Of a stretch of DNA of 62,578 nucleotides, positions 5,925-57,284 are shown one piece after another. Both the position numbers and the translations under genes were made by a program. Positions within the stretch are counted from its first letter, which is position 1. Each line of letters opens with the position of its first letter. The notes under the pieces are model-generated. The model saw only the letters and a program-made list of their open reading frames with translations, did no database searches and had not been told where the DNA came from. The stretch is from Cyanobacterium sp. T60_A2020_053 (GTDB taxonomy: Bacteria; Cyanobacteriota; Cyanobacteriia; Cyanobacteriales; Cyanobacteriaceae), in contig JACYMF010000112.1 of the NCBI GenBank assembly GCA_015272165.1, forward strand, positions 1 to 62,578, in the 5' to 3' direction.

Positions 5925-6040
5925 TACAGCGCATTTCAGATGAGCAAATCACGTTTTTTGTTTCTCGCAAAGGCGCTAAGACGCAAAGATAATCTTTGTG
6001 ATAATCCGAAGTGTCTTTCAAGTAAATGAAGACCTTTGTA
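5925..6040. repeat. Family A MITE, 112-bp form with TA flanks
   Basis: Between TA (5925-5926) and TA (6039-6040) lies a 112-bp element starting CAGCGCATTTCAGATGAGCA with the internal direct words CTCGCAAAGGCGC and AAGACGCAAAG. It matches the 112-bp copy at 35386-35497. The right terminus has decayed (GACCTTTG rather than the usual CTGCTG). Confidence 0.75.
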
Positions 6041-11622: not shown

Positions 11623-11630
11623 AAATGAGC

Positions 11631-11677
11631 AAGGGGTTTAAACCCCTTCTTCTCGTAATATCGGGCTTCTAGCCCGA
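11631..11677. terminator. Two palindromes after the DUF2996 gene
   Basis: AAGGGGTTTAAACCCCTT (11631-11648) and the hairpin TCGGGCT-TCT-AGCCCGA (11661-11677) lie directly behind the stop codon. The first palindrome recurs at 38625 and, interrupted by a family A element, at 44201. A terminator role is likely but there is no strong T-run. Confidence 0.5.
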
Positions 11678-35383: not shown

Positions 35384-35499
35384 TACAGCGCATTTCAAAT
35401 GAATAAACCACGTTTTTTGTGTCTCGCAAAGGCGCAAAGACGCAAAGATAATATTTGTAATAATCTAAAGTGTGGTTTAAGGAAATGAAAACTGCTGTA
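35384..35499. repeat. Family A MITE, 112-bp form with TA flanks
   Basis: TA (35384-35385), CAGCGCATTTCAAATGAATA ... GAAATGAAAACTGCTG, TA (35498-35499). The terminal inverted repeats pair over roughly 27 bp with mismatches. This is the best-preserved long form; compare 5925-6040. Confidence 0.85.
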
Positions 35500-38615: not shown

Positions 38616-38623
38616 ACAAAAAA

Positions 38624-38643
38624 CAAGGGGTTTAAACCCCTTG
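38624..38643. terminator. Perfect palindrome between convergent genes
   Basis: CAAGGGGTTTAAACCCCTTG lies 8 bp after the MTHFR stop and 20 bp from the end of the convergent small gene. Its core recurs at 11631 and around the element at 44208. It probably serves as a bidirectional terminator, although it has no T-run. Confidence 0.55.
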
Positions 38644-38663
38644 CTACACCAATAACTGATAAG

Positions 38664-44207: not shown

Positions 44208-44312
44208 TACAGCAATTTTCATTTCTTTAAACCACACTTAGCATTCTTCTTTGCGACTTGGCGACTTGGCGAGACATAAAAAATGTGGTTTATTCATTAG
44301 AAAAGCGCTGTA
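44208..44312. repeat. Family A MITE, 101-bp form inserted in a palindrome
   Basis: A 101-bp element (44210-44310, CAGCAATTTTCATTTC ... AGAAAAGCGCTG) flanked by TA on both sides. The outer sequence is AAGGGGTT-TA / TA-AACCCCTT. Removing the element and one TA restores AAGGGGTTTAAACCCCTT, the palindrome seen at 11631 and 38625. It differs by a single base from the inverted copy at 56925-57025. Confidence 0.9.
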
Positions 44313-56521: not shown

Positions 56522-56681
56522 TATTTATTCCTATTTCTAGCAACTCATGCAATTAGTGAATGCACATTAAGCATGAATTTAATCGATAATTGACAATGGA
56601 TAATGAAAAGTAGATAATTAGGTGTTGATAAAACAGTTCAACGGCGAGGGCAACCTGATACATAAAATCTTTTTTGTCTTT

Positions 56682-57084
56682 ATGAGTAAAAACGATATTT
56701 TTCACCAGTTACGAAAACATCAAAAGACTTTGCAAGATTATGGAGTAAGACGATGTGGTTTGTTTGGTTCATTTGTGCGAGGGGAAGCAACACAAAAAAG
56801 TGATATTGATTTGCTAGTAGAGTTTGATCCCTCATTAAAAACTTTTATGAATTTTATGAATTTATGCTTTTTCCTCGAAGAATTATTTGAGCGTAAGGTA
56901 GATGTATTGACTCCAGAATCTTTACAGCGCTTTTCTAATGAATAAACCACATTTTTTATGTCTCGCAAAGTCGCCAAGTCGCAAAGAAGAATGCTAAGTG
57001 TGGTTTAAAGAAATGAAAATTGCTGTAAGTCCTATTTTTGGGCATAAGATTCTGGCGGAGGTGGAATATGTCTCATTCTCTTGA
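56682..57084 (+). pseudogene. MNT-type nucleotidyltransferase gene split by a family A MITE
   Basis: The 5' part (56682-56924) starts MSKNDIFHQLRKHQKTLQDY and has the nucleotidyltransferase motif GLFGSFVRGEATQKSDIDLL, followed by VDVLTPESL. There a 101-bp element (56925-57025) interrupts the gene, adding QRFSNE and a stop at 56945. After the element, 57028-57084 encodes SPIFGHKILAEVEYVSFS and a stop, which matches the usual C-terminus of these proteins. Deleting the element plus one TA joins the parts in frame (ESL-SPIF) to about 99 residues, the normal length. No HEPN partner gene is visible. Confidence 0.88.
56923..57027. repeat. Family A MITE, 101-bp form with TA duplication
   Basis: TA (56923-56924), the element CAGCGCTTTTCTAATGAATA ... 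GAAATGAAAATTGCTG (56925-57025), TA (57026-57027). Imperfect terminal inverted repeats of about 27 bp end in CAGC/GCTG. It is identical to the reverse complement of 44210-44310 except for one base. It has no coding capacity. Confidence 0.92.
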
Positions 57085-57284
57085 GGATTATTTAGGGTTT
57101 AAGCATAGGATAAGAGACAAAAAATAGGAAAAAACAACACTGTTAGGACAAAGATAGCATTAAAAAAACAAAACAACAGATATTACAGTGAGAAAATAAA
57201 TTCTTCTAATTTTTAATTATCCATTATCAATTGTCAATTACCCTCACTACATCACTTTTTTATTAACTCCTAATTACTGAGCTT

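Follow-up and report, generated by a model that had tools for sequence, protein, structure and literature searches.

In cyanobacteria, MITEs have been described for Anabaena sp. 90, where 15 of 147 interrupt genes (PMC3542288). They are short and non-coding, have inverted ends and lie mostly between genes, with a minority interrupting genes. The family described here is likened to them by description, and differs in having a TTAA target and what look like fossil codons of a parent transposase. Nezha is likewise a MITE of cyanobacteria, and the title of the work on it, as cited in PMC10969869, describes it as "active"; it is likened to our family by that title. The gene that concerns us resembles part of the type VII system HepT/MntA of Shewanella oneidensis, as portrayed in PMC7641770: it encodes an MNT protein with the motif GSX10DXD which, in relatives, has a HEPN gene with RX4HXY beside it. 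In contrast to the Shewanella pair, however, the HEPN gene is nearly deleted at our locus and the MNT gene is truncated, and even the pair in genome G007, the source of the nearest MNT homologue, falls below the NCBIfam cut-offs. Among the titles and abstract openings listed for MITEs, IS630 elements and toxin-antitoxin systems, none names the present MITE family, and a literature search for Geminocystis MITEs found none.

The locus lies in a stretch of 62,578 nucleotides from Cyanobacterium sp. T60_A2020_053 that was analysed as a whole and is here called the window. We are highly confident that an IS630-type MITE sits at a TTAA in an MNT gene, that the TA was duplicated, and that the gene belongs to a relic MNT-HEPN module. 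The MITE occupies the 101 bp at 56925-57025 and was recognized from the letters themselves, from its inverted ends and from an identical copy elsewhere in the genome. It has no transposase gene, the longest frame inside this copy being at most 27 codons. The two copies of the TA target are at 56923-56924 and 57026-57027 and, like the MITE itself, are assigned to no strand. The junction runs in the order GAATCTT, TA, the 101 bp (from CAGCGCTTTTC to GAAAATTGCTG), TA, AGTCCT. A sequence-only reading of this DNA had proposed a 101-bp element flanked by TA, and its coordinates and letters were correct. Its description of the ends as CAGCG...CGCTG was mistaken: on the right the element closes in ...TTGCTG, and its inverted ends are imperfect, with 33-nt arms that are 73% complementary.

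The truncated gene, MNT-domain and MntA-like, runs from 56682 to 56945 on the + strand and encodes 87 amino acids (PF01909, 55 bits, cut-off 21). Its last 6 codons and its stop come from the element; the frame opening at 56682 closes at 56945 after ...ESL-QRFSNE, the same addition and premature stop that the sequence-only reading had described. The displaced 3' end of the gene, with the last 18 codons and the stop, is found at 57028-57084 (+). That this downstream piece belongs to the MNT family, as had been claimed, was confirmed by tblastn, in which residues 79-98 of the homologue from G007 match 57022-57081 at 85% (E 5e-7). Insertion of a non-autonomous IS630-type MITE at a TTAA spanning MNT codons 81-82 best accounts for this arrangement. 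The central TA of the TTAA was duplicated, as the spacing in homologues and the family as a whole show, and the net insertion of 103 bp shifts the frame and supplies a stop, leaving a protein without its last 18 residues.

Uninterrupted MNT genes were sought in 40 genomes, including that of the window, and matches were found in 29. The nearest homologue, in G007 (same family, different genus), agrees at 88% over residues 2-82; at the DNA level it matches the window at 206 of 240 positions in 56684-56923 (86%) and at 65 of 68 in 57028-57095 (96%). In all eight homologues in which the junction was read, the codons that flank the break in the window are adjacent (ESL-SP or alike), a spacing that fits the duplication of two bases when TA is counted once. 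Deletion of the element plus one TA had been predicted to restore the MNT frame, and the eight homologues do pass the junction without a gap and at the predicted spacing. A single TA is present at the junction in five of the eight, as TTAAG in G003, G004, G036 and G032 and as CTAAG in G035; the two same-genus genomes among these, G003 and G004, read TTAAGT. In the other three (G007, G020 and G013) the junction is TTAAG's counterpart TTGAG, with no TA, and continues as TTGAGT in G007. A BLAST alignment had presented the G007 site as CTTTAAGTCC with one TA; this was rejected, the junction reading being CTTTGAGTCC, in which TA is absent. Past the break, all seven aligned homologues run on through ...EVEYV, and none of the seven ends naturally at SNE, the outcome named beforehand as refuting an insertion. 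As far as is visible, the eight junction homologues sit at chromosomal places other than the window locus. An empty site at the same locus was looked for in the stretches of 14 relatives upstream of the neighbouring gene, and these gave no MNT or HEPN match at E < 1. That neighbour, a nitrate-reductase-associated protein identified by a Pfam match, occurs in all 15 genomes searched (the window's own included), with the reductase inside the stretch in only two of the 14 relatives. Neighbouring genes also include ones that, by the look of their sequence, may be NarB-like and TrpB.

The element is one of many in its genome. Among 55 own-genome stretches examined there were at least 48 copies with both ends, a count that leaves out stretches with one recognizable end and that may be below the true number, as the similarity searches scored 40 candidates. 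A pattern scan for the ends at no more than 2 mismatches gave 42 forward and 40 reverse occurrences. The copies are short, without a transposase gene, dispersed, bounded by terminal inverted repeats and accompanied by a target duplication, as expected of MITEs. TA was present at the A end in 46 of the 48 two-ended copies and at the B end in 47. The target was TTAA in 36 of the 48, as against 721 of the 5281 TA dinucleotides of the window (13.7%; binomial 9e-22). At least six copies in the genome are 105 bp long, all pairs of which are identical at 102-105 of 105 positions (97-100%); other copies measure 100-124 bp. The 105-bp unit of the window, counted from TA to TA, has one identical twin (G000:C15:25499-25603) and four further copies sharing 103-104 of the 105 bases, so that it cannot be put down to chance. 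A 118-bp subtype, observed at L025-L029, has a modified inner GCAAAG repeat that contains CTCGATG.

Three further copies lie in the window. One belongs to the 116-bp subtype (35384-35499, +) and was found by similarity search; another, at 5925-6033 (+), is diverged and matches only positions 1-109 of the 116-bp query. The third is a second 105-bp copy at 44208-44312 on the - strand, inserted at a TTAA within a palindrome, which it splits as AAGGGGTT-TA-AACCCCTT. The same palindrome stands unsplit, with one TA, at 38623-38644 and 11629-11650; with up to 3 mismatches allowed, 100 shuffles gave the unsplit form 0 times. The palindrome, AAGGGGTTTAAACCCCTT, thus recurs at 11629-11650, at 38623-38644 and around 44208-44312, and it was also seen in 4 of 260 loci. 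The exact duplication of TA asserted in the sequence-only reading is upheld by the ends of the family, by the split and unsplit palindrome and by the homologue spacing; because these three, with 48 copies in the family, carry the claim, it stands despite the lack of TA in G007. The family also bears on a quite different account of the 101-bp stretch, as a local hairpin born by slippage or a structured RNA that was never mobile. The stretch has inverted ends and does fold better than shuffled versions of itself (z -3.1, with 1 of 200 shuffles equally good), but the copies with TA ends scattered over unrelated sites, the existence of an IS630 element with similar ends, and zero matches of the window to Rfam at gathering scores make this account extremely improbable.

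The sequence-only reading had proposed a search for an IS630-family transposase gene bounded by MITE-like ends. In the 118-contig assembly of the same genome no intact transposase of the MITE's IS630 lineage was found, the best match being a remnant of 75 residues at 49%. Genome G149, which belongs to another family, does contain an IS630 element whose ends are similar and whose target is TTAA. The own genome has three places with DDE_3 similarity, one intact (L031) and two broken. L031 was considered as the autonomous partner and rejected, its ends (TAAGCTAAGACGCATT) agreeing with those of the MITE at only 5-11 of 28 positions. Among 30 IS630 loci, of many in 15 genomes of the family, there was no end pair of the TACAG type, with candidate end pairs of whatever type reported at 18 of the 30. 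Searches with the 116-bp MITE gave no match at E 0.001 in four same-genus genomes, and a single MITE end at two mismatches was present in same-genus G003. In the 14 other genomes of the family searched, matches occurred in six genomes of two other genera, one of the six being from Geminocystis; many of the matches were to the inner GCAAAG stretch only. Viral contigs gave one match (L163), to the same 161 bases as L128 of G008.

A pattern scan at the level of the order, covering 195 genomes with the own genome included, found MITE-type ends in 22 and led to the G149 element (L203). This is 1052 bp long, has MITE-like ends on both sides and contains two frames that overlap, of 128 and 200 amino acids, unlike the MITE, which has none. 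The 200-aa frame matches PF13358 (DDE_3) at 128 bits (cut-off 28.6) and the IS630 model NF033545 at 113.9 (cut-off 100); the 128-aa frame alone scores 56.8 against NF033545, whose cut-off is 100. The element is thus placed in the IS630 family by its DDE_3 transposase and by a curated model. Seven full-length candidates were fetched from G149; the six that could be parsed at both ends are 1051-1052 bp long and comprise two distinct sequences, with TA at both ends and TTAA at five of the six. Their ends agree with the B ends of the MITEs at 23-24 of 28 positions and with the A ends at 19-22 of 28. In the window MITE, the B end (56996-57027, -) matches the right end of the G149 element at 24/28 and its left end at 23/28; the A end, at 56923-56954 (+), matches at up to 22/28. 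When all 10,561 TA-anchored 28-mers of the window were compared with the ends of the G149 element, only MITE ends exceeded 18/28.

An element of intermediate size was found in Geminocystis sp. GBBB08 (NZ_VRZC01000042.1; G012, contig C262; L161, 4153-4354). It is 202 bp long, has both ends and derives from an IS630 element by internal deletion, being collinear with IS630 positions 1-32 (88%) and 118-173 (84%) and then with the other 28-bp end. On its reverse strand it retains transposase residues 147-199, about 53 codons, at 58% identity, and this frame closes in HCGLFI-stop within the end sequence. The ends in G167 and G058 also translate to HCGLFI-stop, and those of the G149 element to HCGLFT-stop. 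The A end of the window MITE, whose reverse complement contains the codons C-G-L-F-I of the transposase C-terminus, gives KCGLFI in that frame, where the stop codon has been altered; GLFI and the stop are retained in 20 of the 48 own-genome copies. The left end of the MITE thus looks like a fossil of the last codons of a transposase gene. The comparison links an autonomous IS630 element, by way of a 202-bp derivative that keeps transposase codons, to a family of MITEs measuring about 100-124 bp, with fossil codons in the MITE end. On this reading the MITE arose by internal deletion of an IS630 element, with the Geminocystis element as intermediate and the G149 element as parent-like form; an IS630 transposase would have mobilized it in trans. 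The IS630-type mobility that the sequence-only reading had deduced from the TA duplication is supported by the TA ends, the TTAA preference, the IS630 element with similar ends and the intermediate deletion derivative.

The MNT gene of the window has also lost nearly all of its partner, a point that the sequence-only reading had missed. Homology between the window and G007 does not end with the MNT stop but reaches the beginning of a HEPN gene; DNA identity breaks off at 57095. What is left is a HepT-like HEPN remnant of about 10 codons at 57068-57097 (+), overlapping the MNT end, with 8 of 10 residues shared with the G007 HEPN protein. The match has an E of 0.9 on its own, but its place and frame are those of the G007 gene, and the HEPN frame overlaps the MNT end in G007, G003, G013 and G036. 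No further HEPN similarity was found at the window locus beyond 57068-57097. The G007 HEPN protein matches PF01934 (HepT-like) at 97.1 bits, and RX4HXY is present in the HEPN proteins of both G007 and G003. The G007 pair stays below the 60-bit cut-off of the NCBIfam type VII equivalogs (MNT 48.6, HEPN 38.2). At the window locus GSX10DXD is present, no HEPN gene with RX4HXY adjoins it, and the 87-aa protein (P0001) scores 40.3 bits against NF047752 (MntA_antitoxin), below the cut-off of 60. The window locus is therefore a relic MNT-HEPN module in which the HEPN gene has been deleted down to some 10 codons. Short AT-rich repeats of the TTGACAATGGATAATG type flank the relic module in opposite orientation, at 56590-56605 and 57216-57237, and possibly mark how it was acquired or trimmed.

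The motif GSFVRG...SDID had been noted as retained in the truncated protein, with partial function as a possible consequence. The first part is right: GSX10DXD is intact (G29-S30-x10-D41-x-D43), and a third Asp is also kept. The suggestion of partial function is weakened by the loss of a C-terminal helix, since a model of the G007 homologue (mean pLDDT 94.8) has a helix at residues 85-91, in the part missing from the window protein, and by the near absence of the HEPN gene; in a relic module the question is largely moot. In S. oneidensis MntA, Q85 and Q87 contact adenosine, according to PMC7641770. Judged by protein length, without an alignment of that protein, their equivalents would fall in the lost part. 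Homologue alignments span 95-98 residues, and the C-terminal part is kept in 7 of 7 aligned homologues. The retention of this part, with its helix, weighs against the idea that selection has kept the 87-aa protein as an enzyme working on its own, its C-terminus and stop furnished by the MITE. Its intact motif, a frame otherwise undamaged and 83% identity to the G007 homologue would fit such an enzyme, but the adjacent partner is nearly gone, and with six copies of this MITE subtype 97-100% identical the break may be too young for more decay to have accumulated. We regard a retained enzyme as improbable; the 87-aa protein probably has no activity, and it is at all events without its neighbouring partner.

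Of the two events, toxin loss and MITE insertion, we infer that the toxin was lost first, after which the antitoxin would have been free to decay. A state in which HEPN has decayed and MNT is open is expected if toxin loss comes first, and it is seen in same-genus G004 at another locus (L040, G004:C15), where HEPN similarity ends after 35 codons with a stop inside and the MNT frame remains open; G004 would represent such an intermediate elsewhere. The HEPN decay there is independent of that in the window, and the neighbours are those of the intact pair in G003 (L038). The reverse order, with the MITE inserting first and the HEPN gene lost later, is allowed for by a deletion that the sequence does not date and by adjoining DNA still 96% identical to G007. 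Toxin damage moreover takes several forms, the HEPN gene of G020 being altered with its MNT gene intact. While the HEPN RNase is still live, damage to the antitoxin next to it should nevertheless be harmful, judging from what PMC7641770 says of HepT/MntA, and G004 has toxin decay with an open antitoxin frame, so we think insertion before toxin loss unlikely. In G020 (L036, G020:C117) the HEPN frame at 1742-2242 is open and has about 40 extra residues near or inside the RX4HXY region, as if by an in-frame insertion.

When the 48 sites were joined across the MITE and surveyed for interrupted genes, taking frames of at least 90 codons, a frame ran clearly through both flanks mid-gene in two: the MNT gene and a PIN-domain gene (L019, G000:C60:1035-1149; Pfam PF01850) interrupted by a 116-bp copy. 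Toxin-antitoxin modules often include genes of this kind. Other copies lie at gene ends (L021, L024 and L029), and one, L164, lies within a 120-codon open frame. It is doubtful that the MITE prefers to land in toxin-antitoxin genes or is selectively tolerated there, with MITE bursts a regular route by which modules are dismantled after toxin loss in cyanobacterial genomes; a preference cannot be claimed from two mid-gene cases. The comparisons fix the TA duplication and the TTAA target, and they carry a warning for annotation: where an MNT protein from such a genome is short, it may be a truncated relic. They leave the knowledge of MITEs and of toxin-antitoxin systems unchanged, the locus being a clean but ordinary case of mobile DNA in a dying gene pair. 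Elsewhere in the window, the contig end (1-55) is a tandem array of the heptanucleotide ACCTGAA with 7.9 perfect copies, and several further 7-bp tandem arrays are present.
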